In this document: one piece after another, positions 19,836 through 37,813 of the stretch
Layout: each line of letters opens with the position of its first letter
How positions within the stretch are numbered: position 1 is the stretch's first letter
NCBI GenBank assembly: GCA_014382345.1
Contig: JACNJX010000044.1
Span: 1 to 64,000 of the forward strand
Direction of reading: 5' to 3'
From: Alphaproteobacteria bacterium
Lineage (GTDB): Bacteria > Pseudomonadota > Alphaproteobacteria > Rhodospirillales > Casp-alpha2
DNA: 64,000 nucleotides
Notes under the pieces: model-generated
Told to the model about the DNA's origin: nothing
What the model saw: only the letters and a program-made list of their open reading frames with translations
Databases searched by the model: none
Position numbers and translations under genes: made by a program

Positions 19836-19886
19836 GGTTCCACAAATCCCTTTATCAAAAATCCACTCGTACCCGCCGAATACTAT

Positions 19887-19901
19887 GCATGGCCCGTGCC
19901 A
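19887..19901 (-). promoter_or_regulatory. Sigma-54 promoter for flgF operon
   Basis: On the minus strand TGGCACG-GGCC-ATGC matches the consensus TGGCACG-N4-TTGC except for one base, with correct GG-N10-GC spacing. It predicts a leader of about 40 nt before flgF. Confidence 0.82.
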
Positions 19902-20258
19902 ACATAAAAAAATCATTAAAATCATTAAGTTAGAGTTTGTTCTGGAGGGGCGGGATCGTCATCTCCGGGGCGGCGGGTATGCTTTGCCGGGTAGTTCTTG
20001 CCCCGGAACGGCGCGCTTGAGCGCGCCTTCAGCGGAGTCTTGCCAAAGCGGGATGGCAAGGTGGGGAAGCCCGGAAACCTCGGGATTGTTGCCCCCGGTA
20101 TCGCGGATTTGGTACTCTATGATTCGCTGCCGTCCAAAAGGCCCCGAAAGGCTATGGAAAATCCAGGTTTCACGGGATGAAAACGGGCATACGCAGAAAT
20201 GAAATATATGGATTGTGATGTCCCGGCGATGTTTTGGGCGCCCTTTCTCAAGAAGTTG
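19902..20258. other. Divergent spacer between flgF and fliL
   Basis: About 350 bp without a supportable gene. The open frames here lack ribosome-binding sites and protein-like composition. The functional content I can see is the flgF sigma-54 site on one edge and the fliL upstream motif at 20259-20276 on the other. Confidence 0.5.
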
Positions 20259-20276
20259 TTAACCAACCAGGCTTTA
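20259..20276 (+). promoter_or_regulatory. 18-bp motif shared by fliL and flgB upstream regions
   Basis: TTAACCAACCAGGCTTTA lies 58 bp before the fliL start. The same motif with two substitutions lies at 30847-30864 before flgB. It begins with TTAACC, like CtrA half-sites, but is longer. Role unknown. Confidence 0.6.
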
Positions 20277-20334
20277 TATTCTCCCAGCGGCGGTTCCCGG
20301 TTTTCGGGTCCTGTTGCAATAGTGGTTTTTGGTG

Positions 20335-20898
20335 ATGGCTGACGAAGAAGAACCAGAGGACGAAATTGACGATGAGGATGGCGAGGGCCTCGGCGACGAG
20401 GACGGCGAGGCATCCGAAAAGTCAGGTGGTACGAAGAAAGTTCTTCTTATTGTCGCCGTTGTCTTGTTGTTGGCGGTCGGTGGTTTTGCCGCAGCTTATT
20501 TTACCGGTCTCCTGGATCCGGTTATCGCCTGGGTAACGGGGGGCTCCGGAGAAGAGAGTCAGGCGGATGAGGAGAAAAGGAAGGCTTCGCTGGAGGCGGT
20601 TTTCTTTCCGTTGGAAGAAATCATCGTCAACCTCAATACCGGGGGCCGCAAGTCGAGCTTCCTGAAGGTTCGGGTCAGCCTGGAACTGGCCGACGAGAAG
20701 GATATTAAAAGGATTGAAACCGTGATGCCGCGCATAATGGATAACTTTCAGGTTTATCTCCGCGAACTTCGGATCGAGGATTTGAAGGGCTCCGCCGGCA
20801 TGTATCGGCTCAGGGAAGAATTGCTGACGCGAGTCAATATCGCCGCAGCGCCCGTTAAGGTTAACGATGTTCTGTTCAAGGAAATGCTTGTTCAGTAA
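20335..20898 (+). CDS. fliL: FliL, flagellar stator-associated protein
   Basis: A 187-residue inner-membrane protein that rings the stator units. A strongly acidic N-terminal tail (MADEEEPEDEIDDEDGEGLG) precedes one membrane segment (KKVLLIVAVVLLLAVGGFAA) and a periplasmic FliL domain (EAVFFPLEEIIVNLNTGGRK, SFLKVRVSLELADEKDI, LREELLTRVNIA). I used ATG 20335, just inside a TTG-GTG-ATG cluster. It starts the fliL-fliM-motility run and is 30 bp before fliM. Confidence 0.93.
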   Translation: MADEEEPEDEIDDEDGEGLGDEDGEASEKSGGTKKVLLIVAVVLLLAVGGFAAAYFTGLLDPVIAWVTGGSGEESQADEEKRKASLEAVFFPLEEIIVNLNTGGRKSSFLKVRVSLELADEKDIKRIETVMPRIMDNFQVYLRELRIEDLKGSAGMYRLREELLTRVNIAAAPVKVNDVLFKEMLVQ

Positions 20899-20928
20899 GG
20901 GTTTCACAAGGCAAGGAAGCAGATTGAT

Positions 20929-22095
20929 ATGACAAGCCCTGCCGACGAAGACGAAGACCAGGACGCCCTGGCCGCCGAATGGGAAGCCTCCATGGGAGGC
21001 GAAGATGGTGACGGTGGCGGCGACGGCGAGGACGATCTGGCCGCCGAATGGGAGTCCATGGTCGGCGAAGGCGAAGAAGGAGAAGACGGCGGTGGCGAAG
21101 TTGCCGTGGCCGACGAGGGCGGACGGGAATCGACGCGCGTTCTCAACCAGGAAGAAATCGACAGTCTTCTCGGGTTCGATGAGGAGCACGACGACTCCGG
21201 CGACAAGTCCGGGATCCAGGCGATCCTGTCGAGCGCCCTGGTTTCATATGAACGTCTGCCGATGCTGGAGGTCGTGTTCGACCGTCTGGTCCGCCTGATG
21301 TCCACATCGCTTCGGAATTTCACCTCCGACAACGTCGAAGTCTCGCTCGACAATATCGCCTCCATTCGCTTCGGGGATTACCTGAACTCCATTCCGTTGC
21401 CGGCCATGCTGAGCGTATTCAAGGCCGAGGAATGGGATAACTTCGGGCTGGTGACGGTCGATTCCTCGCTGATTTATTCCATTGTCGACGTTCTTCTGGG
21501 TGGACGCCGGGGCACGGCGGCGATGCGGATCGAGGGCCGCCCCTACACGACCATCGAACGGTCCCTGGTGGAACGCATGGTACATGTGATGCTGGCCGAT
21601 CTGAGCGCCGCCTTTGAGCCGTTGAGCCCTGTAACCTTCCGTTTCGACCGGCTGGAAACAAACCCCCGGTTCGCCACCATTTCCCGGCCTTCCAACGCGG
21701 CCATCGTGACGCGGCTCCGGATCGACATGGAAGATCGCGGCGGGCGGCTGGAACTGCTGTTGCCATATGCGACGCTGGAGCCGGTTCGCGAACTGCTGTT
21801 GCAGATGTTCATGGGCGAAAAATTCGGCCGGGATTCCATTTGGGAAACCCATCTTGCAGAAGAACTCTGGATGACCGAGGTCGACCTGGAAGCCGTCGTT
21901 GACCAGCAGATCATGCGCCTGAGCGAGGTCTTCGACCTCAAGATCGGCTCTCGCATCATGTTCAGCGCGACGCCGGATTCTCTGGTCGCGCTCCATTGCG
22001 GCGATGTTGCCATGTATACCGGGCGCATGGGCCGCAAGGGCAATCAGATCGCCATCAAAATCGAGTCGAAAGTTGATTCAAAGGCCCGGCAATAG
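20929..22095 (+). CDS. fliM: FliM, flagellar motor switch protein
   Basis: A 388-residue C-ring switch protein. The N-terminal 70 residues are acidic and glycine-rich and contain two copies of an AAEWE-S-M motif. The CheY-P docking and FliM core follow (RVLNQEEIDSLLGFDEEHDD, then ALVSYERLPMLEVVFDRLVR, SLIYSIVDVLLGG and TIERSLVERMVHVML), and a FliN-like C-terminal domain (EVFDLKIGSRIMFSATPDSL). Typical FliM proteins are about 330-370 residues, the excess being the acidic tail. Confidence 0.95.
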   Translation: MTSPADEDEDQDALAAEWEASMGGEDGDGGGDGEDDLAAEWESMVGEGEEGEDGGGEVAVADEGGRESTRVLNQEEIDSLLGFDEEHDDSGDKSGIQAILSSALVSYERLPMLEVVFDRLVRLMSTSLRNFTSDNVEVSLDNIASIRFGDYLNSIPLPAMLSVFKAEEWDNFGLVTVDSSLIYSIVDVLLGGRRGTAAMRIEGRPYTTIERSLVERMVHVMLADLSAAFEPLSPVTFRFDRLETNPRFATISRPSNAAIVTRLRIDMEDRGGRLELLLPYATLEPVRELLLQMFMGEKFGRDSIWETHLAEELWMTEVDLEAVVDQQIMRLSEVFDLKIGSRIMFSATPDSLVALHCGDVAMYTGRMGRKGNQIAIKIESKVDSKARQ

Positions 22096-22160
22096 GCCTT
22101 GAGAAAGTGATTATGGTCCATTCGTATAACGTTACAACCGTCAAATTTTAAGGAACGCCT

Positions 22161-22712
22161 GTGCCCTTTTCATTGATACTGGATGTGTTCGTTGCGCTTC
22201 TTCTGGTTATCACCATCGGCTTTGCCGTGGTGTTGAACAAACGACTCGGTAAGTTGCGTGCCGACCGGAAAGCCCTGGAAAAACTGGCGTCGACGTTCGG
22301 GGATTCCACTTTTCGCGCCGAGGAGGGCATCAAAATCCTGCAGCATACCACCGACGTGCTGCAGCAGCGCCTGGAGCAGGCGCAGGGTTTGAAAGACGAC
22401 CTGGCGTTTCTGATCGAACGCGGCGACAGGGCGGCGGACAACCTGGAACATCTGGTTCGCGCCACGCGCGATGTGCACGGTGGCGGCGCGAAGGCCCCGT
22501 CTGAATTTGAGCCTGAATTTGAGCCTGAATTTGAGCCTGAATCTAAGCCAGAACCCCGTTCCGAACGGGCGCCGGAAGCCGCAAGCGAGCCGTTGACGGC
22601 TCGGAGAAATACGATGGGGGACGATACGGCGGGGGACGATATGGCGGATGACGACGAAGGAAAATCGGAAGCCGAACGGGAACTGCTGAAAGCCATCCGC
22701 TCTGCCGGCTAG
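22161..22712 (+). CDS. DUF6468-type membrane protein of flagellar clusters
   Basis: A 183-residue protein with one N-terminal membrane segment (LILDVFVALLLVITIGFAVV), a helical region of about 90 residues (LGKLRADRKALEKLASTFGD to LIERGDRAADNLEHLV) and a disordered acidic tail containing FEPE repeats. The layout and its position between fliM and motE match the alphaproteobacterial DUF6468 family. Function unknown; the coiled-coil segment suggests a membrane-anchored structural partner of the motor or C-ring. The start is GTG with AGGAA 6 bases upstream. Confidence 0.65.
   Translation: MPFSLILDVFVALLLVITIGFAVVLNKRLGKLRADRKALEKLASTFGDSTFRAEEGIKILQHTTDVLQQRLEQAQGLKDDLAFLIERGDRAADNLEHLVRATRDVHGGGAKAPSEFEPEFEPEFEPESKPEPRSERAPEAASEPLTARRNTMGDDTAGDDMADDDEGKSEAERELLKAIRSAG
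22503..22550 (+). repeat. 12-nt tandem repeat encoding FEPE
   Basis: Three perfect copies of GAATTTGAGCCT (22503-22538) are followed by one degenerate copy, giving repeated EFEP in the disordered tail of the DUF6468 protein. Confidence 0.9.
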
Positions 22713-22762
22713 GCCGGTCAGGTAGGGTAGTGCTGTATGGAATGCGGATATAGGTTACTAAC

Positions 22763-23485
22763 ATGTTGAAAATATTTTCAAAAATCAGATTCCTGCCGCT
22801 GACGATTTTTGCCGCGACGATGATGTTGACGGTCAAGATCGGCGACATCTGGGAAGGGTTCGGTGGAATGGACCAAGGCTCCATCCAGGTTGCCGGTGCG
22901 GTCGCGCAGACCGGTGGCGGTGCCAATAAATCCGCGGAGGATGCCGGTGACGGGAATGCCCAAAAGGGCGATCCCCAGGATAAAGCCAAGGCGATGTCCG
23001 CCGCCCTGAAGGATGAGCCCAAGGGTCCCCAGTCGAAACTGATTACCGAAGACCCGACGCTCCTGACCAATGCTGAAATCGATCTGTTGCAGCAACTGGC
23101 CGAGCGCCGTCGGGTTCTGGAATCCCGCGAGCAGGAACTACAAACCCGGACCGGTCTTCTGACCGCCGCGGAACGGCGCATCGACAAGAAAGTCCAGGAA
23201 TTGAAATCGCTTCGGGAAACCATTACCGGTCTGATCAAGACCTACGACAATCAACAGGACGCGAAACTGGTCAGCCTGGTCAAAATTTACGAAAACATGA
23301 AGCCCAAGGACGCGGCCAGGATTTTCGAGGATCTTGAAATGGACACGTTGCTTGAGGTCGCGGAACGGATGAAGGAACGGAAACTGGCGCCGGTGATGGC
23401 GAAAATGAATCCGGAAAAAGCCCGTGAAATGACCGTTGAACTGTCGCAATTGCGGAATTTGCCCATTGTTCCCAAGCCGAATTAG
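22763..23485 (+). CDS. motE: MotE-family periplasmic/inner-membrane motility protein
   Basis: A 240-residue protein with an N-terminal signal or anchor (FLPLTIFAATMMLTVKIGDI), a low-complexity linker, a coiled coil (residues about 95-160, DLLQQLAERRRVLESREQEL to KVQELKSLRETITGLIKTYD) and a C-terminal MgtE-N/FliG-like domain (VKIYENMKPKDAARIFEDL, then EMDTLLEVAERMKERKLAPV). This is the MotE architecture; in Sinorhizobium MotE is a chaperone for the periplasmic motor protein MotC. Its neighbours here are two MotB-like genes and a large periplasmic TPR gene. Confidence 0.8.
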   Translation: MLKIFSKIRFLPLTIFAATMMLTVKIGDIWEGFGGMDQGSIQVAGAVAQTGGGANKSAEDAGDGNAQKGDPQDKAKAMSAALKDEPKGPQSKLITEDPTLLTNAEIDLLQQLAERRRVLESREQELQTRTGLLTAAERRIDKKVQELKSLRETITGLIKTYDNQQDAKLVSLVKIYENMKPKDAARIFEDLEMDTLLEVAERMKERKLAPVMAKMNPEKAREMTVELSQLRNLPIVPKPN

Positions 23486-23515
23486 TTTTTGCAGAATTGG
23501 TTACAGTAGGAACGT

Positions 23516-24214
23516 ATGAACGAATTTTCGGCCGCAAACCCATCCGCGTATGATTCCCGCCAGGGAACCGTCTATGCCTTTCTTTCCCTGTTTTTGCTGA
23601 TTCTCGCCTTTTTTATCGTTCTGGTGTCCATTTCCACCGTCGAAGACGTCAAATCGAAGGCGGTGATGCAAAGCCTGACGTCTACCTTCACCACATTCCG
23701 TAAGACCGGAGATGTGATTTCCGACTTTACATCGAAACAGGGCGATGTGCTGGGCGGGCAGGCGTTCCAGGAAAAAGTCACCGGAATTTTTGCGACCGCC
23801 CTTCAGGTTGCCAAGGTCGAGATCGTCCAGCCCGGCCGTTTGATGCATGCGCGCATGCCCATCGAAGCCGTGTTTCAGGAAAACACCGACCGGTTAAACC
23901 CGAATGTCGTGGCGTTTCTCGACCGGATAGTCGCGGCCTTGGGTGGCCGCCCGCCGGGGGTCCGGTTCGATATGGAATTTATCGTCGGGACGGTTCCGGC
24001 CGGAGACGGGACGTTTCATGTAACGCAGACTTTGGCGATGGCGCGAGCCGGTGGGTTCGCCCGCGAAATTCTCGGCCGGGGCGCTCCCCCGGACAGCCTG
24101 TCGGTAGGGCTCGTGCCGGATGCGCCGGGACAGGTGACGATGCGCTTTTACGTCCGCAGTGAAAACAAAGGTCGTACTGAAAATCAAACCCAGCCTCGGG
24201 CTGGGCCGCAATAA
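23516..24214 (+). CDS. MotB-like membrane protein lacking the proton-binding Asp
   Basis: A 232-residue protein with a single N-terminal membrane segment (VYAFLSLFLLILAFFIVLVS) and a periplasmic region ending in an OmpA/MotB-like fold (NVVAFLDRIVAALGG, ALAMARAGGFAREILGRGAP). It aligns with the next gene, a MotB, but where MotB has the essential aspartate (TFTDLVALMLTFF) this protein has serine (AFLSLFLLILAFF). It is therefore probably not a proton-conducting stator subunit but may be a structural paralogue. The stop is 10 bp before the chosen start of motB. Confidence 0.7.
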   Translation: MNEFSAANPSAYDSRQGTVYAFLSLFLLILAFFIVLVSISTVEDVKSKAVMQSLTSTFTTFRKTGDVISDFTSKQGDVLGGQAFQEKVTGIFATALQVAKVEIVQPGRLMHARMPIEAVFQENTDRLNPNVVAFLDRIVAALGGRPPGVRFDMEFIVGTVPAGDGTFHVTQTLAMARAGGFAREILGRGAPPDSLSVGLVPDAPGQVTMRFYVRSENKGRTENQTQPRAGPQ

Positions 24215-24224
24215 AAGGGTTCCG

Positions 24225-25016
24225 GTGGGTACGGTGGACAATCAACAACATAATATTCAGCCGACTTTTTCGCCCGGCGCATCGTCCGATGGGCGAGGCC
24301 AGCGGGTATGGCTGATTACGTTTACCGATCTGGTCGCCTTGATGCTGACCTTTTTCGTCATGCTGTTCGCCATGTCCAGCGTCAAGGTCAGCGATTGGCA
24401 GAACGTGATCGATTCCCTGTCACAGACCCTGCGCCCGACGCTTGAAAAAGTGCCTCCGGTGCAGACATCGAAATTCAACATCGGCACTATTTTCCGTGGT
24501 AAGGCGATTAATCTGGATTATCTGGCCTCCGTGATCGGGGAAGCGGTTGATGCGCAACCCCAGTTGACGGACAGCCATATTCTGCTTCTGGATGATCGCC
24601 TGATGATCGTCCTTCCAGGAGACACCCTGTTTCCGGCGGGGACGGCGGAGATGACGGACGCCGGGCGCAAGGCTCTGTTCGTTTTGGGCGGCGTGCTGCG
24701 CAATATCGGCAACGAAATCGGCGTCAACGGCCATACGGGCACGGAACCGCCGGCGAGGATCGGGGTGGGCGATGGTGTGGGTGGTGGCTATGCATCCAAC
24801 TGGGAATTGTCTACGGCCAGGGCCGCTTCCGTCGCCAATGCGCTGCGACAATCCGGTTACCTGAAAACCATTACCGCCTTTGGTTACGCCGACGGGCGTC
24901 CCGCGCCGTTGTTGGGATTACCGGGGGAATTTCAAGGGGAGCTTACCGTTGAGCAGCGCGCATCCCTAGATCGGCGGATCGAAATCATCATCCGGCCCGA
25001 GGCGGGGGGGGCATGA
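24225..25016 (+). CDS. motB: MotB-type flagellar stator protein
   Basis: A 263-residue stator subunit. The membrane segment WLITFTDLVALMLTFFVMLF keeps the proton-accepting aspartate, and the C-terminal OmpA-like peptidoglycan-binding domain has LPGDTLFPAGTAEMTDAGRK, VNGHTGTEP, ELSTARAASVANALRQSGY and DRRIEIIIRP. I used GTG 24225, with AAGGG 5 bases upstream. The frame is open to GTG 24159, but that would overlap the preceding gene by 56 bp. No motA is adjacent. It overlaps the next gene in an ATGATGG arrangement. Confidence 0.85.
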   Translation: MGTVDNQQHNIQPTFSPGASSDGRGQRVWLITFTDLVALMLTFFVMLFAMSSVKVSDWQNVIDSLSQTLRPTLEKVPPVQTSKFNIGTIFRGKAINLDYLASVIGEAVDAQPQLTDSHILLLDDRLMIVLPGDTLFPAGTAEMTDAGRKALFVLGGVLRNIGNEIGVNGHTGTEPPARIGVGDGVGGGYASNWELSTARAASVANALRQSGYLKTITAFGYADGRPAPLLGLPGEFQGELTVEQRASLDRRIEIIIRPEAGGA

Positions 25017-28000
25017 TGGCCCGGCGGTTGCTTTCCCTGTTGGCGCTTCTTGTTCTCGCTTTGCTGGCGGATATTTTTTCCGCCCAGTCCTTACGGGCCG
25101 AGCCGGTGCGCGTCAGCGCCGCCGCCCGGGATGATTTCGGACGTATCGTCTTTAACTGGAATTCCCCGGTCAGTCACAAGTCTTCGGTCAGCGGTGGGAC
25201 AATGACGGTGCGCTTCGCCCGCCCCATCGAAGCGTCTTTCGGGCGTGTCACCCGGACGCTCCGGAAATACGTGAAATCCGTCAAATCCGGGGGCGACGGG
25301 CAAAGCGTGGTTGTCGAACTGGCCGGAGAATTCGACGTCTACAGTTTCGATTCCGGCAGTTCGGTGATCGTTGAAATCGCCGAAAAGGAGACGGCGCCTA
25401 AGGATAAAGAAGACTCCAAACAGGCCAAATCTTCCGCCGCCAAGCCGAACGCCGAAGCAAAGCCGGCCGAGAAAACGGCGGGGGCGGTAGAGTCTGGTAA
25501 GGAAGATTCCGATCTTCCAACCGTTCGGGTCCGCACGGGCCAACACGCCGAGTATACGCGCCTGGTCTTCGACTGGCCCAGCAAGGTGGCCTATGACCTC
25601 AAGCAGGACGGTGCCATCGCCACTCTGACCTTCAACCGCGCCGTTAATTTCAACCTCAAGGCCCTAACAACGGGCCGTGTGCCCTTTATCGGCGGCGCCA
25701 GGGCCGGGCTTGGCGACGGAACGTCAACCGTCACCCTGTCCGTCCCGAAAACTTCCAAGCTCCGTCATTTCCTGGCCGGGGCCAAGGTGGTTGTCGATGT
25801 TCGCCGGCCCAGCGGTTCACAGAAGGCGGAGGCCCTGCCGCCCGAACAAGCCCCAAAAAAGGAATTGGAAATGGTCGCGGAAAAGGCTCCCGAAACTCCC
25901 AAGGCCCCGGAGGTGAACGAGCCAGCGTCACAACCCGCGTCTAAAACCGCGGATATCAAAAAAACAACAGAGAGCGGAGCGGTAAAAACCGCCGCTCAGT
26001 TGAAAACCGGGGCTGAACCTGCCGAGCCGGCAAAGGGACCGGAGCCTGTATCCGGTCAAACTCCGGGAACCCCCACGCGCTTGACGCCTCCGCCAGGAAC
26101 GCAGGCTGCGGCGTCTTCTCCGTCCACCGCTCCGGAAAAACCGCAAGCCCTGCAAGGTTCGCGAAGCCGGGCCGCGGGGCTTCCGCCCCTGGCGCCGGCT
26201 CCGTCGGGCGTTAGAGTCGCTGCAGCCCCGCCGGCTTCCGGTTCGTCGTCCGGTCCTGGCGCCGCGCCCGCCGATGCCGTGACGCTCCGCTTTGATTGGA
26301 GCGAACCCGTTGGCGCCGCTATTTTCCGGCGCGGCGGAACCCTCTGGATCGCCTTCGACAAGCCGACGGCTATCGACGTCGCCCAATTGCGCGAAGCCGG
26401 CCGGAATATCATCAAAGGCGTGGAACAGATGGGGACGACCCAGGGAACGGTTCTCAGGCTGGCGACCATGGAAGGGATCAATCCGTCCGTTCGCCGCGAC
26501 GGGCTGGCCTGGTTGCTGGATTTCCGCAAACAACCCCTGGACGCAAAGACACCCTTGACGGTTCATGCGCAACCGAACTCGCCCGTCGGCGCCCGGCTGT
26601 TTGTGCCGGTGCCCGAGCCCGGAAAGCCCATCGGCATCACCGATCCTGAGGTCGGCGATAATTTGATCATTGTTCCTCTGATTCCCTTAAGCAACGGGAT
26701 CGGGTTGGAGTATGTCTATCCGCAACTTCGCTTCATAACCTCCGCCCAGGGCATCGTCGTGCAACCCCGCGTCGACGATATCCGGGTGCGCCCCTTGCGT
26801 GAAGGCGTTGAAGTGACCAGTGGCGGGGAATTGCAGATTTCGGCGGTATCCGAAGAGGCCGAGGCCAACCGCAAACTGGCGGCCATGAAGCCGCTGACCC
26901 GGATTCTCGACCTCGAACCATGGAAGGTGAAAAGTCCCCTTTCCTTCCGCAACCGGAAGCACGAGCTGCTGTACGCCGTCAGCCGGTCGAAAGGGACGGC
27001 CCGCGAAGCCACGCGCCTTGACCTGGTGCGGTTTTATATCGCCAACGGATATTTTGCCGAAGGCTTGGCCGTATTGCGCGAAAGTGTGCGGACGCGTTCC
27101 GGAATTGAACAGAATCCGGAATTCCGAATGCTCCGGGGGGTGGCAAAATTCATGCTGGGCCGCTACGTGGAGGCCGATAAGGATTTTTTCCACGACGAAC
27201 TGAAATGGATCGACGAAGCCGCGTTTTGGCGGGGCGCGATTCGGGCGGCAATCGGCGACATCACGGCGGCGGCATCCGTTCTTAGACGCACCGGCCGGAT
27301 CATCCGTCCCTATCCGAAAGCCATAAAAATTCCCTTGGGCCAATTGGTTGCCGATACGGCGCTGAAGGCCGGCGATATCAAGCAGGCCCGGTATTTCCTT
27401 GAATTTCTTCGCCTCGACAACCTTACGCCGAAAGAGAAAAACCTGCTCGATTATGAAGAGGGGCGGGTTCTGGAACTGTCCGGAGATTTTGATGCCGCCA
27501 TCGCCAAGTGGGAAGCCGTGCGCGACGGCACGCACCGGCCGAGCCAACCGAAAGCGGTGATCTCGCGTATGGAACTGCTCCGCAAACTGGACCGTCTGCC
27601 CTTGTCCGGGGCGATCCAGGACCTCGAAAAAATCCGCTTCGCCTGGCGCGGCGATGAATTCGAATTCAACCTGTTGCGCCGGTTGGGCACTCTCTATATC
27701 GAAAACGGTCAATATCGAAAAGGCCTGGACCAGTTGCGCCAGGCCGCGACCTACTTTCGCACCCACCCGGATGCGCCGCAGGTGACGTTGCAGATGTCAG
27801 ATGCCTTCACCAGCTTGTACCTGGATGACGCCGCCGATTCCCTGCCGCCGGTGATGGCGATCGCCATTTACGATGAATTCAAGGAACTGACCCCGGCTGG
27901 CGTTCAGGGCGACGAAATGATCCGCAAGCTGGCCGACCGGCTAGTCGGCGTAGATCTTCTCGACCGGGCTCTTCAATTGCTGACCGCCCAGGTCCGCTAC

Positions 28001-28756
28001 CGCCTCCAGGGCGAAGAAAAGGCCCGTGTCGGAGCGCAACTGGCGCTGGTGCATATCCTCGCCCGGCAATATGACGAAGCCATAAAGACCCTGGATGAAA
28101 CGGATTCACCGGGGCTTCCGGCATCTCTGGTCCAGCAACGCCTGCATATACGCGCGAGAACCCTGATGGGCGTCGAGCAGAATGAAACCGCGCTCGCGGT
28201 GCTCAAGGGGGACAAAAGCAGGGACGCGGAGCTGCTCAGGACGGAAATCTTCTGGGGTGAGCGGAAGTGGTCCAATGCGGCCCAGGCGCTTCGCAACCTG
28301 ATCCGTCTGACCGATGCGAAACCGGGCAAGGAACTGGACGACAGGCAGGCGGCCTATGTTCTGAATTACGCCATCGCCTTGACCTTATCCGGAAATGAAC
28401 GGGCCCTTGGCCGGGCGCGCAGCGATTTTTCCACAGGCATGGCCAAAAACAGGCTGAAAAACGCCTTCAACCTGATTGTTTCGCAGAGGTCCTTGGGGCT
28501 TTTGGACCCCGGTCAGGTGCGCTCCAATGTCAAGGAAGCGGAAAACTTCGTAACCTTCATGGCCGCCTACCGCGAACGCTTGAAGAAGGAAAACCTGAGC
28601 GAACTGGTGCCGCCGGCGGCGCGGCCCAAACGCGCTGGCCGCAACCCGGGCCTTCAGAAGGGCAAGCAAACGCCGGAAGCCCCGAAAACCACGCCCCCGG
28701 CGGGTGATAACGCCGTACCCGGACAACAACCGTCCCGTACGCCGCCGCAGGCGTAA
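25013..28756 (+). CDS. Giant periplasmic AMIN-like/TPR protein of the flagellar cluster
   Basis: A 1247-residue exported protein. A signal (RLLSLLALLVLALLADIFSA) is followed by two AMIN-like beta modules (about residues 30-120 and 170-260), a proline/alanine-rich linker of about 150 residues, a third similar module (about 420-510: TLRFDWSEPVGAAIFRRGGT), and a C-terminal TPR-like helical region (about 650-1190). The tail is again Pro/Lys-rich. It starts within the motB stop, so it is co-translated with the stator genes. AMIN modules bind peptidoglycan or periplasmic partners, suggesting a scaffold around the stator. A MotC-like role is possible given motE upstream; no specific function is known to me. 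Confidence 0.75.
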   Translation: MMARRLLSLLALLVLALLADIFSAQSLRAEPVRVSAAARDDFGRIVFNWNSPVSHKSSVSGGTMTVRFARPIEASFGRVTRTLRKYVKSVKSGGDGQSVVVELAGEFDVYSFDSGSSVIVEIAEKETAPKDKEDSKQAKSSAAKPNAEAKPAEKTAGAVESGKEDSDLPTVRVRTGQHAEYTRLVFDWPSKVAYDLKQDGAIATLTFNRAVNFNLKALTTGRVPFIGGARAGLGDGTSTVTLSVPKTSKLRHFLAGAKVVVDVRRPSGSQKAEALPPEQAPKKELEMVAEKAPETPKAPEVNEPASQPASKTADIKKTTESGAVKTAAQLKTGAEPAEPAKGPEPVSGQTPGTPTRLTPPPGTQAAASSPSTAPEKPQALQGSRSRAAGLPPLAPAPSGVRVAAAPPASGSSSGPGAAPADAVTLRFDWSEPVGAAIFRRGGTLWIAFDKPTAIDVAQLREAGRNIIKGVEQMGTTQGTVLRLATMEGINPSVRRDGLAWLLDFRKQPLDAKTPLTVHAQPNSPVGARLFVPVPEPGKPIGITDPEVGDNLIIVPLIPLSNGIGLEYVYPQLRFITSAQGIVVQPRVDDIRVRPLREGVEVTSGGELQISAVSEEAEANRKLAAMKPLTRILDLEPWKVKSPLSFRNRKHELLYAVSRSKGTAREATRLDLVRFYIANGYFAEGLAVLRESVRTRSGIEQNPEFRMLRGVAKFMLGRYVEADKDFFHDELKWIDEAAFWRGAIRAAIGDITAAASVLRRTGRIIRPYPKAIKIPLGQLVADTALKAGDIKQARYFLEFLRLDNLTPKEKNLLDYEEGRVLELSGDFDAAIAKWEAVRDGTHRPSQPKAVISRMELLRKLDRLPLSGAIQDLEKIRFAWRGDEFEFNLLRRLGTLYIENGQYRKGLDQLRQAATYFRTHPDAPQVTLQMSDAFTSLYLDDAADSLPPVMAIAIYDEFKELTPAGVQGDEMIRKLADRLVGVDLLDRALQLLTAQVRYRLQGEEKARVGAQLALVHILARQYDEAIKTLDETDSPGLPASLVQQRLHIRARTLMGVEQNETALAVLKGDKSRDAELLRTEIFWGERKWSNAAQALRNLIRLTDAKPGKELDDRQAAYVLNYAIALTLSGNERALGRARSDFSTGMAKNRLKNAFNLIVSQRSLGLLDPGQVRSNVKEAENFVTFMAAYRERLKKENLSELVPPAARPKRAGRNPGLQKGKQTPEAPKTTPPAGDNAVPGQQPSRTPPQA

Positions 28757-28789
28757 AGGTTCAAGCCTATAGGAAAAAGGGGCCAGCTA

Positions 28790-29620
28790 TCAGCCGAAGC
28801 TGCGCACCAGTGAGCCGACGATCATGTACCAGCCGTCGACCAGCACGAAAAAGATGATCTTGAACGGCAGGGCTATGATGATCGGCGGCAGCATCATCAT
28901 GCCCATGGACATCAGCACCGACGCCACCACCATGTCGATAATCAGGAACGGTACAAAAACCAGAAAGCCGATCTCGAAGGCGCGGCGCAGTTCGGAAATC
29001 ACGAATGCCGGGATCAACACCCGCATGGGCATTTCCTTTTTGACCTCTGCGTCGGGAATTTTCGCGATGTCGACGAACAGTGCGATATCCTGCTCGCGCA
29101 CATGGGACAACATGAAGGCGCGAAACGGCTGAACGGAGCGCTTGAAAGCCTCGGCTTCTTCGATCTCGCCCTCGATCAGAGGCTTGATACCCTGATCAAA
29201 GGTTTTCTCGAAAACCGGCATCATCACGAACAGGGTTAGGAACAGCGCCAGGCTGATCAAGACCTGGTTGGGCGGCGTCTGCTGGGTGCCGAGCGCCGTG
29301 CGCAGAAACGATAGAACAACGATGATGCGCACGAACGACGTCATCATGACCAGGATCGACGGCGCCAGGCTGAGGACGGTCACCAGGGCGATGATCTGGA
29401 TGACCCGGGCCGTTGTTTCGCCACCCGTGGCGTCTCCGCCGAGGTCCAGAGACAGGCTTTGCGCGGCCGCCGGATCCGCCGTCCACACCAGAACCGCTGC
29501 GAGCGCCAGGCTCAGCGCCGACGCGCCAACGAAGGCCAAAAGCAGAGGCTTCAGTGAAGAAGAGCGGGGTTTGACCCGGGGTTTGGCCCGGAATTTGGCC
29601 CGGAATTTGGCAAGGATCAT
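28790..29620 (-). CDS. fliP: FliP, flagellar export-gate protein
   Basis: A 276-residue export-gate subunit. Core motifs are VLSLAPSILVMMTSFVRIIV, LRTALGTQQTPPNQVLISLA, FLTLFVMMPVF, PMRVLIPAFVISELRRAFEI and GMMMLPPIIIALPFKIIFFV. It has the usual cleavable signal ending AAAQ, but in front of it lies an unusual basic extension (KFRAKFRAKPRVKPR) made of 12-nt repeats. Start and fliO stop overlap by 4 bp (ATGA). Confidence 0.95.
   Translation of the reverse strand: MILAKFRAKFRAKPRVKPRSSSLKPLLLAFVGASALSLALAAVLVWTADPAAAQSLSLDLGGDATGGETTARVIQIIALVTVLSLAPSILVMMTSFVRIIVVLSFLRTALGTQQTPPNQVLISLALFLTLFVMMPVFEKTFDQGIKPLIEGEIEEAEAFKRSVQPFRAFMLSHVREQDIALFVDIAKIPDAEVKKEMPMRVLIPAFVISELRRAFEIGFLVFVPFLIIDMVVASVLMSMGMMMLPPIIIALPFKIIFFVLVDGWYMIVGSLVRSFG
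29561..29608 (-). repeat. 12-nt tandem repeat at the fliP start
   Basis: Two perfect copies of AAATTCCGGGCC (minus strand, 29608-29585) are followed by degenerate copies down to about 29561. They encode FRAK-FRAK-PRVK-PR immediately before the signal sequence. Confidence 0.85.
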
Positions 29621-29940
29621 GCCTGGTCCTCGGGATTGTTTCCGCCGGTGGACGTTCCGTCCGGTTCCGGTTTCGCCCGAATTCCGCTTTCGATGACGGT
29701 TTCACCGTTCGGGCTCAGCACCAGCAGATGCTCGGTATCGTCGCGCCGGATCAGGACCATGCGGCGGCGTCCGTCCAGGGGGGCCGCCTCAACGACCGCA
29801 AGCCTCCGGTTGGTGGATTTCTTTATGGCCTGGGACGGAAAGCCAAAGCCCATGCGTCTGGCCATGGCTGCGGCGGCGCCGATCAATCCGATGACGAAGA
29901 CCAGTGCCAGAAAAAATCGGAGATACTCGGAAAATTCCAT
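29617..29940 (-). CDS. fliO: FliO, flagellar export-gate assembly protein
   Basis: A 107-residue membrane protein with one N-terminal segment (YLRFFLALVFVIGLIGAAAA) and a short cytoplasmic domain carrying the FliO pattern RRLAVVEAAPLDGRRRMVLI, then RRDDTEHLLVLSPNGETVIE. FliO stabilises FliP during gate assembly. It directly overlaps fliP and follows an unknown small gene by 18 bp. Confidence 0.9.
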   Translation of the reverse strand: MEFSEYLRFFLALVFVIGLIGAAAAMARRMGFGFPSQAIKKSTNRRLAVVEAAPLDGRRRMVLIRRDDTEHLLVLSPNGETVIESGIRAKPEPDGTSTGGNNPEDQA

Positions 29941-29958
29941 GGTTTTTAATCGTCGCTC

Positions 29959-30264
29959 TTACGTGTTGTCTTTGGCCGCGTCGCGGCTGGCTTGCAACTC
30001 GGCCAACTCCCGGCCCAGGTCATTGAGGTCGTTCACCAGCCCCTCGATGGAGGTCATAATCATCGGGGCGTCCGCATCCGAAGGCGGGTTGGCGGAGATG
30101 GCCGCGCAAAAGGCGCTGACCTTGGTCATGAAGCTGCCGAGTTCGATATCGTTGCCGGCGGCAACCTCACCGCGGGCGGCCAGGATTTCGCCCGCCAGGG
30201 TGGCGATGCCGTCTCTCAGGCTGGCGGTATTGTTGTCGTTGGTGGGGGTATCGGGAGGGGTCAT
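29959..30264 (-). CDS. Small helical protein of unknown function in fliO operon
   Basis: A 101-residue protein, mostly helical, with an N-terminal disordered stretch (MTPPDTPTNDNNTA) and a C-terminal coiled-coil-like segment (EGLVNDLNDLGRELAELQAS). No membrane segment or known motif. The ATG at 30264 is preceded by AAGGAG and overlaps the stop of the upstream flhB-like gene (ATGA), so it is translationally coupled to it. Its place between an FlhB-like gene and fliO suggests a part in export-gate function, but I do not recognise the family. Confidence 0.7.
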   Translation of the reverse strand: MTPPDTPTNDNNTASLRDGIATLAGEILAARGEVAAGNDIELGSFMTKVSAFCAAISANPPSDADAPMIMTSIEGLVNDLNDLGRELAELQASRDAAKDNT

Positions 30265-30626
30265 GGTTCTGGCTCCTTGGGCCATAAAGCGGACAAACCG
30301 CCATCCTGTGGTGCGCCCATGTCGCCGGGCGCGGAAAAGCCGGCATTGGCCTGATATACATAGGTGAGGATTTCGGCGACGGCGGCGAAGGCTTCGACGG
30401 GGATTTCGCTGTCGATATCAATGGAACTCAACAACTGCGCCAGGTCCGCGTCTTCACGGACCCTGACGCCGTTGGCAAAAGCGATCTCCAAAATCTGCTC
30501 GGCAATGCGGCCGCGGCCGCCGGCGACCATGCGGGGCGGGCGACCATTCTTCAGGTCGTGCGCGAGCGCGACAGCCACGGCCTGCTTGTTGTCTTCGCCT
30601 TCATGGTCTTTTTCGGATGTCGACAA
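30261..30626 (-). CDS. FlhB C-terminal-domain-like protein (FlhX/FhlB type)
   Basis: A 121-residue cytoplasmic protein equivalent to the C-terminal half of FlhB without the membrane domain: AVAVALAHDLKNGRPPRMVA, then EQILEIAFANGVRVREDADL, AQLLSSIDIDSEIPVEAFAA and VAEILTYVYQAN. The NPTH autocleavage motif present in the true FlhB of this window is not present. Such proteins can substitute partly for the FlhB cytoplasmic domain in export switching. Start is TTG with GAGG upstream. It is the first gene of the minus-strand run to fliP, divergent from flgB, with a CtrA-like box in between. Confidence 0.85.
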   Translation of the reverse strand: MSTSEKDHEGEDNKQAVAVALAHDLKNGRPPRMVAGGRGRIAEQILEIAFANGVRVREDADLAQLLSSIDIDSEIPVEAFAAVAEILTYVYQANAGFSAPGDMGAPQDGGLSALWPKEPEP

Positions 30627-30700
30627 GGTGCCTCTTTCGCTCCGTTCTGCCAGGGAACGGCGTTAAACACTGGAACCACTATAACCGTGACGCACCGGCC

Positions 30701-30716
30701 TTAAAAATCACTTAAC
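30701..30716. promoter_or_regulatory. CtrA-type binding site (TTAA-N7-TTAAC)
   Basis: TTAA-AAATCAC-TTAAC matches the CtrA consensus TTAA-N7-TTAAC exactly. It lies 75 bp before the flhB-like start and 260 bp before flgB, in the divergent spacer 30627-30977. The presence of cckA six genes downstream fits, but ctrA itself is not in the window. Confidence 0.65.
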
Positions 30717-30846
30717 CGGCGGGGGAATGGCAATGCCATGTTATTAAACGAATTATTTCCATTTCGGGGGAGGCTATTCCGGGGCCGGTTTCCGGCCAGG
30801 AAGGGACCTTGTGGCCGACTCGGGAGGCCAACTGGGGGCGTACCTT

Positions 30847-30864
30847 TTAACCAACCCGGTTTTA
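30847..30864 (+). promoter_or_regulatory. 18-bp motif upstream of flgB, shared with fliL
   Basis: TTAACCAACCCGGTTTTA is identical at 16 of 18 positions to the motif before fliL. Its end runs into a degenerate CtrA-like box (TTTA-CCAATTG-TTAAG, 30861-30876). It lies 114 bp before the flgB ATG. A classical sigma-54 site is not evident here. Confidence 0.6.
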
Positions 30865-30977
30865 CCAATTGTTAAGAAACCCGGCAGATAATGCCTAGTC
30901 GTGGCCTGTGAGTCGTGCATTGCGAAAAATTTGCAGCTGCGCCTGGAACGGGAAAACAGTTTAAAGGCATCAGGGTT

Positions 30978-31382
30978 ATGGATTTATCCAGCGTCCCCTT
31001 TTTTAGCATCGTCAAGAAACGCATGGCCTGGCTGGGCCATCGCCAGGAGGTCTTGTCGCAGAACATCGCCAATGCGGATACCCCCGGTTACAAGGCCCGG
31101 GACATCAAGGCCTTTCAGTTCAAGGAGATGGTCCGCAAGGAAAGCGCAAGTCTCACCATGGCGGCGACGTCGGGGAGCCACCTTCGGGGGCAGCCCAAGC
31201 GAACGACGGAATTCGGCTCCCAGGAAATCCGCAACCCGTATGAGACCGCTACCAACGGAAACTCCGTCGTGCTCGAAGAGCAGATGGCGAAAATGAGCGA
31301 ATCATCGGTCAATTACCGCCTGGCCACCCAATTGTACAAAAAGCATCTCGGCATGATCAAAACAGCCCTCGGCCGCCGCTGA
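30978..31382 (+). CDS. flgB: FlgB, proximal rod protein
   Basis: A 134-residue proximal rod subunit. MDLSSVPFFSIVKKRMAWLG then HRQEVLSQNIANADTPGYKA is the family start, and YRLATQLYKKHLGMIKTALG the usual ending. The frame is open 21 codons upstream, but similarity begins at ATG 30978. It heads the flgB-flgC-fliE-fliQ-fliR-flhB-cckA run. Confidence 0.95.
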   Translation: MDLSSVPFFSIVKKRMAWLGHRQEVLSQNIANADTPGYKARDIKAFQFKEMVRKESASLTMAATSGSHLRGQPKRTTEFGSQEIRNPYETATNGNSVVLEEQMAKMSESSVNYRLATQLYKKHLGMIKTALGRR

Positions 31383-31422
31383 GCAGGATTTTTCGGTCAC
31401 CGAATTCTTAAGGATTAGATTT

Positions 31423-31833
31423 ATGGACGACATCATCAAGACAATGCGGATTTCCGGCGCCGGCATGCGCGCACAAGGCAACCGTCTTCGCGTGATCTCG
31501 CAAAACCTCGCCAACGCCAATTCCCTGCCGCAGGAACCCGGCAAAAATCCCTACCGGCGTCAGGTCATTTCCTTCAAGAATGTCCTCGACCGGTCGATCG
31601 GCCTGAAAACGGTGCGCACGGGCAAGGTTCAGCCCGACCGCTCCGATTTCAACAAACGCTATGAACCGAGCCACCCGGCTGCCGACGTTGATGGCTACGT
31701 GAAGACGCCGAACGTCAACACCCTGATCGAAATGACCGATATGCGCGAGGCGCAACGGTCCTACGAGGCCAACCTCAACGCCATTAAGGTTTCCAAGGGC
31801 ATGCTGAACCAGACCATCGAGCTGCTGCGTTAG
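31423..31833 (+). CDS. flgC: FlgC, proximal rod protein
   Basis: A 136-residue proximal rod subunit, 40 bp after flgB. It has MRISGAGMRAQGNRLRVISQ, NLANANSLPQEPGKNPYRRQ, HPAADVDGYVKTPNVNTLIE and the C-terminal REAQRSYEANLNAIKVSKGM, all standard for FlgC. Confidence 0.96.
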   Translation: MDDIIKTMRISGAGMRAQGNRLRVISQNLANANSLPQEPGKNPYRRQVISFKNVLDRSIGLKTVRTGKVQPDRSDFNKRYEPSHPAADVDGYVKTPNVNTLIEMTDMREAQRSYEANLNAIKVSKGMLNQTIELLR

Positions 31834-31893
31834 TACAAGAGCCTGATAAAGAACGGGAAAACAGATAACCAAGAGAGAGAGTAGGAAACATAT

Positions 31894-32214
31894 ATGTCCG
31901 CTCCGTTGACAAGTATCACCACCGCGATCAATGCCTATAACGACGCCGTCAAAGGCGGCGGCTCCGCCAAAGAGGAAATCTCCGCCGGTCCATCGGGAAG
32001 CGAATTCGCCGATCTGGTCAAGGGCGCCATCAATGAAGCCAAGAAGATCGGCGAGCGCAGCGAACAACTTTCCATCGCCGGCGTCGCCGAACGTGCCGAT
32101 ATCGGCCAGGTCGTCACGGCGGTTGCGGAAGCCGAAGTTACGTTACAGACTGTGGTAACGATTCGCGACAAGGTCCTGGACGCCTACAAGGACATCATCC
32201 GCATGCCCATCTAG
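31894..32214 (+). CDS. fliE: FliE, hook-basal body junction protein
   Basis: A 106-residue protein that joins the MS ring to the rod. The conserved C-terminal helix pair has SIAGVAERADIGQVVTAVAE, then AEVTLQTVVTIRDKVLDAYK and DIIRMPI. The start has AGGAAAC upstream. Standard place between flgC and fliQ. Confidence 0.95.
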   Translation: MSAPLTSITTAINAYNDAVKGGGSAKEEISAGPSGSEFADLVKGAINEAKKIGERSEQLSIAGVAERADIGQVVTAVAEAEVTLQTVVTIRDKVLDAYKDIIRMPI

Positions 32215-32286
32215 GCGAGCTTTCCAGGGACCGGGGCAGGTACCCGGCTTTGGCGTAATTCGAAACATCGCGGTTAGGGGATTCCG

Positions 32287-32553
32287 GTGGACGAGGCCTC
32301 CGTTCTGGAAATTGGCCGAAACGGTATTTGGGTGGTCCTGAAGTTGTCGGCCCCTATCATGGGCGCGGGTCTTTTAATCGGGCTTGTCATCGCGCTGTTT
32401 CAGGCGCTGACCACCATTCAGGAAATGACTCTGACGTTCGTTCCCAAGATCGTCGTCATCTTCTTTTCAATTCTGTTGTTCCTGCCGTTCATGATGACGA
32501 CGCTGATCGAATTTTCCCAGGAACTGTTCGGCCTGATCGTCACGCTGGGGTAA
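32287..32553 (+). CDS. fliQ: FliQ, flagellar export-gate protein
   Basis: An 88-residue two-helix membrane protein: LKLSAPIMGAGLLIGLVIAL, then FQALTTIQEMTLTFVPKIVV and a second hydrophobic helix. The start is GTG with AGGGG 6-8 bases upstream. FliQ inserts into the FliP-FliR export gate. Followed by fliR after 21 bp. Confidence 0.95.
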   Translation: MDEASVLEIGRNGIWVVLKLSAPIMGAGLLIGLVIALFQALTTIQEMTLTFVPKIVVIFFSILLFLPFMMTTLIEFSQELFGLIVTLG

Positions 32554-32574
32554 CGGGGGGGGTAATTTCGGGGC

Positions 32575-33336
32575 ATGTTGGAAGAAATCCTCACCCTCAA
32601 TATTTTCGGTTTTTTCCTTATTTTTACGCGCATCGGGACGGCGCTGGCCATCATGCCGGGGTTCAGCGCAGGCTTCGTTCCCGTCCGCCTGCGTTTAGGC
32701 ATTGCCCTTGCTATCAGCTTCGTCATGACGCCGGTTTTGATCGCCGGGCTTCCGGTGCGTCCGCCGAGTGTCGCCGGCATGGCGATGCTGATCGGCGGGG
32801 AATTTTTGATCGGCCTGTTTTTCGGCGCTATCGCCCGCATCCTGATCGGCGCCCTGCAGACGGCGGGTACGGTGATTTCCTACATGTCGTCCATGGCCAA
32901 TGCGATGATCCAGGACCCCATCGCCGAGCAGCAAAGCTCCACCGTCGCCAGTTTCCTGTTGATTATGGGCACGGTTCTTATTTTCAGTGCCGACCTGCAT
33001 CACATGATGCTGCGCGCCCTTGCCGACAGCTATACGCTGATGGAACCGGGCCGGGCGCTGCCGATGGGCGATATGGTTAATATTCTGGGCCGCCGGGTGG
33101 CCGACAGTTTCGCGCTCGGGCTCCGTTTGGCGGCGCCCGTCGTCATCGTCGGGCTGACCTATTACATCGGCCTCGGCCTGCTGGGCCGCCTGATGCCGCA
33201 ACTACAGGTCTTCTTCTTCGGTTTGCCGGTCCAGATCGGGTTGCAGATATGGGTTCTGGCGATCACCCTGACCGGCATCATGCTGGTGTTCTTGCAGAAT
33301 TTCGGGGAAGCCTATCAGAACTTCATCTTGCCTTAA
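32575..33336 (+). CDS. fliR: FliR, flagellar export-gate protein
   Basis: A 253-residue membrane protein with about six hydrophobic segments. Family marks include LIFTRIGTALAIMPGFSAGF, GGEFLIGLFFGAIARILIGA, GLRLAAPVVIVGLTYYIGLG and a C-terminal PVQIGLQIWVLAITLTG. Length is standard and position between fliQ and flhB is conserved. Confidence 0.95.
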   Translation: MLEEILTLNIFGFFLIFTRIGTALAIMPGFSAGFVPVRLRLGIALAISFVMTPVLIAGLPVRPPSVAGMAMLIGGEFLIGLFFGAIARILIGALQTAGTVISYMSSMANAMIQDPIAEQQSSTVASFLLIMGTVLIFSADLHHMMLRALADSYTLMEPGRALPMGDMVNILGRRVADSFALGLRLAAPVVIVGLTYYIGLGLLGRLMPQLQVFFFGLPVQIGLQIWVLAITLTGIMLVFLQNFGEAYQNFILP

Positions 33337-33419
33337 CGCTTTGGCCGCTAAATTGGGCAGGTGGATCCTGGGAAGGCTCCTCAGGAATGTCCCGGGAAGG
33401 CCAATAGCAAGGACGGAAC

Positions 33420-34529
33420 ATGGCCGAAGAAGACGACGACTCACAAAAAACAGAAGACCCATCAGAGCGAAAGCTTTCGAAAGCCCGGGAGAAAGGCGAC
33501 GTCGCCCAATCCCAGGAGCTCAAGACGTGGATGATCCTGCTGGGCGGTACCGCCGGGCTGATCTTCATGGGCCCGACCATCGCCAGCGGCATCCGCCAGG
33601 TGGCCATACCCTTCGTGCAAAGTCCGCATGCCATTCCGATCGATTTCGAACATCTGCTCCTGACCATGGCCGACGTGACGTCGAACGTCGGGCTTTTGCT
33701 GGCGCCTTTGCTTGGGCTTTTGCTGATTCTCGGCATTGCTTCCAATGTTGCCCAGTTCGGGCTGATGTTTTCGCCGGAAAAGGTGAAATTCGACCTGTCC
33801 AAGATTTCCGTCCTCAAGGGCACGAAGCGGATGTTTTCGCAGCGCGCGCTCATGGAATTTCTCAAGGGGATATTGAAGCTTGTCGCCGTCGGCGTGGTGT
33901 CTTTTCTTCTGGCGCTGCCGTGGCTGACCGACCTGACGCTGTTTCCCCGCATGGAAATTGTCCAGTCCATGGACCGTATTTTCATCATCGCGACCGTGCT
34001 GTCGGCAGGTACGCTGGGGGTGATGACCCTGGTTGCGGCCATGGATTTCGCGTTTCAAAAGCACCGCTTTACCAAGCGCATGCGCATGTCGAAGCAGGAA
34101 GTGAAGGACGAGCACAAGCAATCGGAAGGCGATCCGCACGTGAAGGCGCGGATTCGGAAAATCCGCACCGAACGCGCTCAGCAGCGCATGATGAGCGCCG
34201 TTCCAGACGCCGACGTGATCATCACCAACCCGACCCACTATTCCATCGCCCTGCAATACAAGATGGATGAAATGGCGGCGCCCAAGCTGGTCGCCAAGGG
34301 CGTCGATCACCTGGCTATGCGCATCCGGGAAGTCGCCGAGGCCAACGACGTGCCCCTGGTGGAAAACCCGCCCCTGGCGCGTGCGCTCTATGCGGGCGTC
34401 GATATCGACGAGGAAATTCCCGCCGAACATTTCAAGGCGGTGGCCGAGGTTATCGGCTTCGTCATGCGCCAACGGGGCGAACTGCCGGGCGCAGACCCTT
34501 CAACCGGTGGCCAAGCGCCGCTACAATAA
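33420..34529 (+). CDS. flhB: FlhB, flagellar export specificity switch
   Basis: A 369-residue export-gate protein. An N-terminal basic segment (DDSQKTEDPSERKLSKAREK) leads into four membrane helices, and the cytoplasmic domain carries the autocleavage motif in VIITNPTHYSIALQYK, followed by KLVAKGVDHLAMRIREVAEA and VPLVENPPLARALYAGVDID. The start ATG has AAGGA upstream. 83 bp after fliR; cckA follows 71 bp later. Confidence 0.96.
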   Translation: MAEEDDDSQKTEDPSERKLSKAREKGDVAQSQELKTWMILLGGTAGLIFMGPTIASGIRQVAIPFVQSPHAIPIDFEHLLLTMADVTSNVGLLLAPLLGLLLILGIASNVAQFGLMFSPEKVKFDLSKISVLKGTKRMFSQRALMEFLKGILKLVAVGVVSFLLALPWLTDLTLFPRMEIVQSMDRIFIIATVLSAGTLGVMTLVAAMDFAFQKHRFTKRMRMSKQEVKDEHKQSEGDPHVKARIRKIRTERAQQRMMSAVPDADVIITNPTHYSIALQYKMDEMAAPKLVAKGVDHLAMRIREVAEANDVPLVENPPLARALYAGVDIDEEIPAEHFKAVAEVIGFVMRQRGELPGADPSTGGQAPLQ

Positions 34530-37794: not shown

Positions 37795-37813
37795 TGTGGG
37801 AACAGCATTCGTT

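Follow-up and report, generated by a model that had tools for sequence, protein, structure and literature searches.

The fliL and flgB loci

The stretch of DNA considered here (the window) is 64,000 nt of contig JACNJX010000044.1 from assembly GCA_014382345.1 (3.07 Mb in 121 contigs, 2.33% contaminated), the genome of a marine alphaproteobacterium of the order Rhodospirillales. It carries fliL and fliM, with flgF divergent from fliL, and a presumed operon that begins with flgB and ends with cckA, divergent from which lie flhX, fliO and fliP (Table 1). Our analyses of the regions upstream of fliL and flgB support a full CtrA-type box at both promoters, which we assign to the early class, and point to an inverted repeat around the -10 of flgB as a probable operator for FlbD.

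Loci of relatives were collected via FliM and FlgB, and the upstream regions of fliL and flgB were taken from them; three of the 110 fliM loci and one of the 36 FlgB loci were dropped, leaving 107 and 35. All 107 fliL regions and 34 of the 35 flgB regions entered the de novo motif searches, and 98 fliL and 30 flgB regions were used for motif fitting after removal of near-duplicates. Counts given below are of loci and not of independent species, and some named loci duplicate others (L012/L072, L020/L070, L036/L071 and more). The sequences, their conservation and register, the gene order and the presence of ctrA, cckA and flbD genes are direct observations.

Table 1. Positions of promoter elements, predicted regulator sites and genes in the window.
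Feature	Position	Strand	Basis or remark
fliL CtrA-type full box TCAAGAAGTTGTTAA	20248-20262	+	Left arm one base off TTAA (TCAA); de novo motif, spacing, weight matrix
fliL predicted -10, TATATT	20275-20280	+	12 bp past box; predicted start ~20285-20287
flgB CtrA-type full box TTTACCAATTGTTAA	30861-30875	+	Left arm one base off TTAA (TTTA); motif, spacing, weight matrix
flgB predicted -10, GATAAT	30887-30892	+	11 bp past box; predicted start ~30898-30899
Predicted FlbD operator GGCA-GATAA-TGCC around flgB -10	30883-30895		Rank 2 for flgF weight matrix from other genera; best window match of model R2
Predicted FlbD enhancer of flgF	19987-20002	-	101 bp upstream of sigma-54 site; weight matrix rank 1; one mismatch to GGCA-N5-TGCC
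flgF sigma-54 site	19886-19901	-	Loose pattern faces flgF in 98/110 fliM loci
Predicted FlbD enhancer of flgI	13119-13137		108 bp upstream of sigma-54 site 13026(-); third distinct weight matrix site
Predicted FlbD enhancer of flgE	15036-15051		~107 bp upstream of sigma-54 site 14941(-); fourth distinct weight matrix site, weakest of the four
First 18-mer TTAACCAACCAGGCTTTA	20259-20276	+	Right arm of fliL box, spacer and first two bases of -10
Second 18-mer TTAACCAACCCGGTTTTA	30847-30864	+	Non-conserved TTAACCAACC plus TTTA, the left arm of the flgB box proper
Exact TTAA-N7-TTAA(C) box	30701-30715		Faces flhX-fliO-fliP; full box also in three aligned congeners
fliL	20329-20898	+	Pfam FliL
fliM	20929-22095	+	Pfam FliM
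flgB, flgC, fliE, fliQ, fliR, flhB	30978-34529	+	Pfam; flgC via rod C-terminal domain and position
cckA	34550-37177	+	20 bp past flhB; last gene of presumed flgB operon
flhX (FlhB C-terminal-like)	30261-30626	-	Pfam; divergent from flgB; name coined in this analysis
fliO	29617-29940	-	Pfam; follows flhX
fliP	28790-29620	-	Pfam; follows fliO

CtrA-type boxes upstream of fliL and flgB

De novo motif searches run with no prior returned tCAAc.a.TTGTTAACCa.c.....cTa...Tt from the fliL regions and TT.ACcg.TTgTTAAgaaacccGGCAGATAATGCC from the flgB regions, two motifs that have the common register TNNA-N7-TTAA-N11-(-10). At a width of 44 the log-likelihood was 1203 for fliL (155 when shuffled) and 614 for flgB (133 when shuffled), and 95 of the 107 fliL regions and 26 of the 34 flgB regions scored above 10 bits. 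TTHA-N7-TTAA occurs in 29 of 35 flgB regions, the other spacings from N4 to N10 being found in 0-3, and YYAA-N7-TTAA occurs in 63 of 107 fliL regions, the other spacings being found in 2-13. The distance from box to -10 is mostly 11 bp in the relatives, and is 12 (fliL) and 11 bp (flgB) in the window. The transcription starts in Table 1 were predicted using the box-to-start distance rule from PMC6180460.

The relationship between the two promoters was also apparent in scans of both strands of the window with position weight matrices (PWMs). The two top-ranked sites for a full-length PWM trained on 13 fliL promoters from outside the window's genus were 20247 (30.4 bits) and 30860 (14.8 bits), in that order, and the corresponding PWM from 13 flgB promoters placed 30860 first (50.0 bits). 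We adopted this leave-genus-out design because a model built from 34 hand-picked promoters (R1) had its two top genome matches, the strong ones at flgB and fliL, in its own training set; its third match in the genome had an expectation value (E) of 0.8.

Several results weigh against the assignment of these promoters to CtrA. Both left arms in the window deviate from TTAA by one base, and 12 of the 107 fliL regions (including that of L017, which was misplaced by the script) and 8 of the 34 flgB regions score 10 bits or less. With a box-only fliL PWM, flgB dropped to eighth place (9.2 bits), behind a coding site at 22770(-), which came second (20.0 bits), and the flgB-trained PWM met the fliL box only in reverse (20263-, third); the cross-prediction between fliL and flgB therefore rests on the full-length PWM. 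In addition, exact TTAA-N7-TTAAC is not enriched in the genome (11 occurrences vs 12 for a control pattern), so that the box alone proves nothing and is no regulon predictor. The regulation of fliL and flgB is also wholly predicted for this organism.

The lack of enrichment would suit ordinary sigma-70 promoters, in which the TTAA motifs were simply AT-rich promoter sequence without CtrA. We consider this very improbable, based on the strong preference for N7 over the other N4-N10 spacings at fliL, flgB and fliF (for which see below). Moreover, a sigma-70 consensus scan of 19900-20400 detected no promoter upstream of fliL, and its sole match in 30600-37900, at 31360-31331 on the minus strand, is not one that precedes flgB.

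The original prediction had set fliL and flgB apart from the sigma-54 promoters of the rod, hook and ring operons, and this contrast held: one sigma-54-like site each was found before flgF, flgI and flgE, and the 30 best-scoring sites listed include none with the GG-N10-GC core upstream of either fliL or flgB. A candidate sigma-54 promoter at flgB was rejected because its spacing did not fit.

A single CtrA match at E 1e-60 or better was found in the assembly, with E 3e-103 and 68% identity to Caulobacter CtrA, and at least one such match is present in 54 of the 61 genomes searched. The protein scores 413.7 bits to the NCBIfam CtrA model, above the cut-off of 350, and its recognition stretch, DEPELKIIDVFICKLRKKL, is unchanged relative to a hand-typed Caulobacter CtrA reference. 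An N7-specific box with one arm relaxed, a -10 at a fixed distance and an encoded CtrA are together consistent with full-motif CtrA promoters at fliL and flgB.

The ctrA gene of this genome, on contig L201, is divergent from fliI. A palindrome with N8 spacing, TTAACGAATTCGTTAA, is situated about 20 bp upstream of its start codon (L201 2177-2192) and is possibly autoregulatory. Model R1 gave a best match of only 6.1 bits (E 0.3) on this contig.

The register of the two 18-mers

The element originally proposed was an 18-mer common to the fliL and flgB upstream regions, possibly comprising a CtrA half-site joined to a -10-like TTTA, with no third copy seen. Both copies are present before the two genes and are identical at 16 of 18 positions, and the window has no other site within three mismatches of their joint pattern. 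Genome-wide they are likewise the sole full matches in 3.07 Mb; this uniqueness is lost at three mismatches, where there are four more sites vs five for a reversed control. The pair is not rare by itself, because the window contains 562 merged 18-mer pairs at two or fewer mismatches; three first-order Markov controls gave 129, 150 and 119 such pairs. When two positions were left open and one mismatch was permitted, the pattern was found in four of the 61 genomes, the window's own included. One of these matches, in G024, falls 18 kb away from fliM on a contig that carries both fliM and flgB, and no flagellar gene was recognised next to it.

The two copies do not have the same place in their promoters. 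The distance from the start of TTAA to the start of the -10 is 16 bp at fliL and 40 bp at flgB, and when the promoters are aligned by homology the register moves by 25 bp, so that 20259 pairs with 30872 and not with 30847. At fliL, TTAACC supplies the right arm of a full TCAA-N7-TTAA box, and the 18-mer runs on into the first two bases of TATATT, the predicted -10. At flgB, by contrast, the TTTA of the 18-mer is the left arm of TTTA-N7-TTAA, and the predicted -10, GATAAT, begins 26 bp after the first base of that arm. The remainder of the second copy, TTAACCAACC, is absent before flgB in all three aligned congeners, in which the box is kept, and has 6.4 bits and E = 1 under the conserved-promoter model. 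It was also tried as a second CtrA half-site and was rejected, since it is absent from the aligned congeners. An exact TTAA-N7-TTAA box is present between the two 18-mers, at 30701-30715.

Based on the differing offsets, the non-conservation of TTAACCAACC and the abundance of similar pairs, we give almost no credence to an 18-bp element shared in the register first noticed, the identity and uniqueness of its copies notwithstanding. What remains of that idea is an early-class promoter of CtrA type that lacks a sigma-54 site; the half-site fused to a -10-like TTTA does not.

An inverted repeat around the -10 of flgB

The flgB motif around the -10, GGCAGATAATGCC, is an inverted repeat, GGCA-N5-TGCC, and is far more conserved there than the corresponding part of the fliL motif. 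The exact repeat is positioned on the flgB -10 in 19 of 35 regions, and none of the other spacings tried (N2-N8) was found in any.

The same repeat was recovered upstream of flgF. For that set the loose sigma-54 pattern was used, some occurrences of which are probably due to chance (e.g., those in L025 and L086), and 94 loci were used for the motif search, 93 for spacing and 86 for training of a PWM. The de novo motif, found with no prior, was cGGCAAta.cTGCCcGGCAa (713 at width 16 vs 50 shuffled). Exact GGCA-N5-TGCC is present in 69 of the 93 regions, and N3, N4, N6 and N7 in 0, 0, 1 and 0, respectively. In 64 of the 69 regions the repeat starts 76-103 bp before the flgF sigma-54 site.

The PWM from the 86 flgF regions, all from other genera, had as its four best distinct sites in the window those before flgF (19.8 bits), on the flgB -10 (19.4 bits), before flgI (15.2 bits) and before flgE (13.1 bits). 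These were rows 1, 2, 3-4 and 6 of its listing, respectively, row 5 overlapping flgF. A stricter model built from 57 of 59 distinct exact repeats (R2), the two from the window's genus being excluded, also had the flgB -10 repeat as its best match in the window. The site of GGCA-N5-TGCC type closest to the fliL box in the window is the predicted flgF enhancer, which lies about 250 bp farther upstream.

A further example of the two elements side by side is fliF, for which 29 of 30 loci were usable. TTAA-N7-TTYA is present in 28 of these (other N4-N10 spacings in 0-1) and GGCA-N5-TGCC in 26, and in all 26 repeat-bearing loci the CtrA box follows 5-6 bp after the end of the repeat; fliF of the window's own genome (L229) shows this arrangement too. 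As judged from these motifs, a CtrA box is combined with the repeat at both fliF and flgB, with the two elements arranged differently.

We infer that FlbD is the best candidate for the protein that binds GGCA-N5-TGCC. The sigma-54 activator for middle flagellar genes in Caulobacter is FlbD, which also acts through an ftr site to repress fliF, an early gene (PMC3930126, PMC3096577). In the genome of the window, an flbD gene is located between flhA and a motA-like gene (L201 10849-12192, minus strand), and FlbD is the best NCBIfam family for its product, with 736.4 bits. That the sequence on the flgB -10 is shared with the sites upstream of sigma-54 promoters in a genome encoding FlbD is consistent with its being an FlbD site.

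Against this assignment, the FlbD score falls just under the cut-off of 750, and the best match of R2 in the window has an E of only 0.13. A scan of the genome with R2 was underpowered, with 150 of 1450 candidates scored, and listed two matches, neither of them flgB: the better one was a GGCA-N5-TGCC 87 bp upstream of a sigma-54 site that belongs to a flgG-like gene, and the other was beside a transporter gene. In addition, 16 of the 35 flgB regions, two of the three aligned congeners among them, lack the exact repeat on the -10.

These absences, along with the fact that the flgB copy is built around the -10, could indicate that the CtrA boxes are correct and that some regulator other than FlbD binds GGCA-GATAA-TGCC at flgB, or that this sequence is simply a favoured -10 context. 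FlbD bound to GGCA-N5-TGCC was also found in none of the literature consulted. We regard this alternative as unlikely, given that the repeat keeps to a narrow range of distances from the flgF sigma-54 site, is near those of flgI and flgE, and occurs before the flgG-like gene and beside the fliF CtrA box, where an FlbD site is expected. Furthermore, a PWM trained solely on flgF upstream regions detects the flgB copy.

In two congeners (L042 and L043) the flgB -10 repeat is broken (GGCtGATAATGCg and GGCgGATAATGCg, respectively) and the CtrA box is intact, making them natural test cases for the FlbD idea. Three other loci (L054, L058 and L059) have an extra GGCA-N5-TGCC-like repeat, GGCAAxAATTGCC, in the flgB upstream region besides the copy on the -10. 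The second flgG-like rod gene of the assembly (L236 530-1306 and 1413-1514; G000:C110) has a sigma-54 site with GGCAGGCCCTGCC 87 bp before it, and may be a paralogue or contamination.

The divergent flhX-fliO-fliP side

The exact box at 30701-30715 ranked second, on the minus strand, for the flgB-trained box-only PWM. When 26 regions upstream of flhX were searched de novo, the motif recovered was the flgB promoter in reverse.

Since this box faces flhX and is kept in the three aligned congeners, we considered that CtrA might repress flgB and activate flhX-fliO-fliP, as reported for Caulobacter flgB-fliO (PMC6180460). That precedent, in which flgB is CtrA-repressed, also counts against activation of flgB in this genome. 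Repression nonetheless appears improbable to us: on the flgB strand a conserved -10 follows the flgB box at a distance of 11 bp, in the same geometry as at fliL and fliF; the box at 30701 has a TATAG 17 bp downstream on the minus strand, not 11; and flgB2 of Rhodobacter sphaeroides is CtrA-activated (PMC6180460).

The presumed flgB operon and cckA

The two best of 133 families for the product of the gene after flhB are NCBIfam CckA models, with 718 bits, short of the cut-off of 1000. The gene follows flhB in all 18 relatives whose regions extend past flhB, of 19 flgB regions fetched. A scan of 30600-37900 gave 12 terminator matches vs 8.1 expected, one of which (31368-31383) spans the end of flgB; we consider none of them convincing, either there or between flhB and cckA. 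The cckA gene is presumed to be co-transcribed with the operon, as flgBC-fliEQR-flhB-cckA. A different order is seen at one locus (L072 11131-11734, MarineAlpha3_Bin2), where fliM is followed within about 200 bp by a C-terminal part of flhB and then cckA and recA; this may be a rearrangement or a misassembly.

The relay genes ctrA, cckA and chpT are co-located with flagellar genes in Rhodospirillum rubrum, an arrangement flagged as needing attention (PMC12363192), and chpT, cckA and divL were identified in only 27-36% of the Rhodospirillales genomes surveyed in PMC8116508. In our literature search, which was mostly at the level of titles and abstracts with little subscription content, we found no FlbD site on an flgB -10 and no promoter of an flgB-cckA operon.

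Proposed regulation and comparison with known systems

We think it probable that fliL and flgB have CtrA-activated class II promoters, and that the repeat on the flgB -10 is bound by FlbD, which would shut the operon while activating flgF, flgI and flgE. In this proposal the housekeeping sigma factor would read both promoters, and phosphorylated CtrA would bind TNNA-N7-TTAA, a site that begins about 38 bp upstream of the predicted start, with its right arm closing 11-12 bp short of the -10, and would so turn the flgB operon on. Active FlbD would then occupy the flgB -10, shut flgBC-fliEQR-flhB-cckA and at the same time switch on flgF, flgI and flgE, for rod, ring and hook. With cckA as the last gene of the presumed flgB operon, the CtrA box at flgB would, if the genes are co-transcribed, feed the kinase at the start of the relay that leads to CtrA itself, and the repeat would provide a means of stopping this. 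CtrA binding and activation, FlbD binding and repression, co-transcription of cckA and feedback on CtrA are all inferred from the motifs and gene order described above.

The proposed promoters resemble the CtrA-activated class II flagellar promoters of Caulobacter, which have the full motif TTAA-N7-TTAA near -35 (PMC4287350), in the form of the box, its N7 spacing, its position at about -38 relative to the predicted start, the early genes served and the CtrA recognition stretch. They differ in that the left arms at fliL and flgB are degenerate, and in that flgB appears to be activated here and is reported to be CtrA-repressed there (PMC6180460). A parallel in the genes concerned is the fla2 system of R. 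sphaeroides, where the fliL2 and flgB2 promoters were shown experimentally to be CtrA-dependent and the box ends 23-24 nt before the start (PMC6180460). The same two genes would be under CtrA in the window, with the same 23-24 nt from box end to predicted start and an A at -11. The arms of the flgB2 box are 6 bp apart, and flbD is stated to be missing from the Rhodobacteraceae shown in that report (PMC6180460); flgB in the window differs in having N7 spacing and a repeat of FlbD type on its -10.

Caulobacter fliF with ftr4 likewise combines a CtrA-activated early gene with an FlbD repression site (PMC3930126), and the fliF of the order studied here has the box beside the repeat. At flgB, unlike fliF/ftr4, the repeat encloses the -10 and the operon carries cckA; this comparison is one of arrangement. 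The presence of cckA among flagellar genes is shared with R. rubrum (PMC12363192), and our analysis adds to that report the promoter heading the operon and its two predicted inputs.

The corrected register indicates which bases would be the right ones to mutate in these promoters. A box 3.7 kb upstream of cckA could also escape searches of each gene's own upstream region. More tentatively, we suggest as a possibility, and one we would not yet favour, that the flgB promoter in this order is a compact two-input switch, composed of a CtrA box and a -10 within an FlbD operator, through which flagellar assembly feeds back on the cell-cycle relay. CtrA would increase the supply of its own kinase, and once the early flagellar structure is complete, a signal passed on by FlbD would cut this supply off. 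A two-input promoter heading an operon that ends with cckA would provide a concrete reason for the co-location of relay and flagellar genes, and one that resides in two targets of 13-15 bp.

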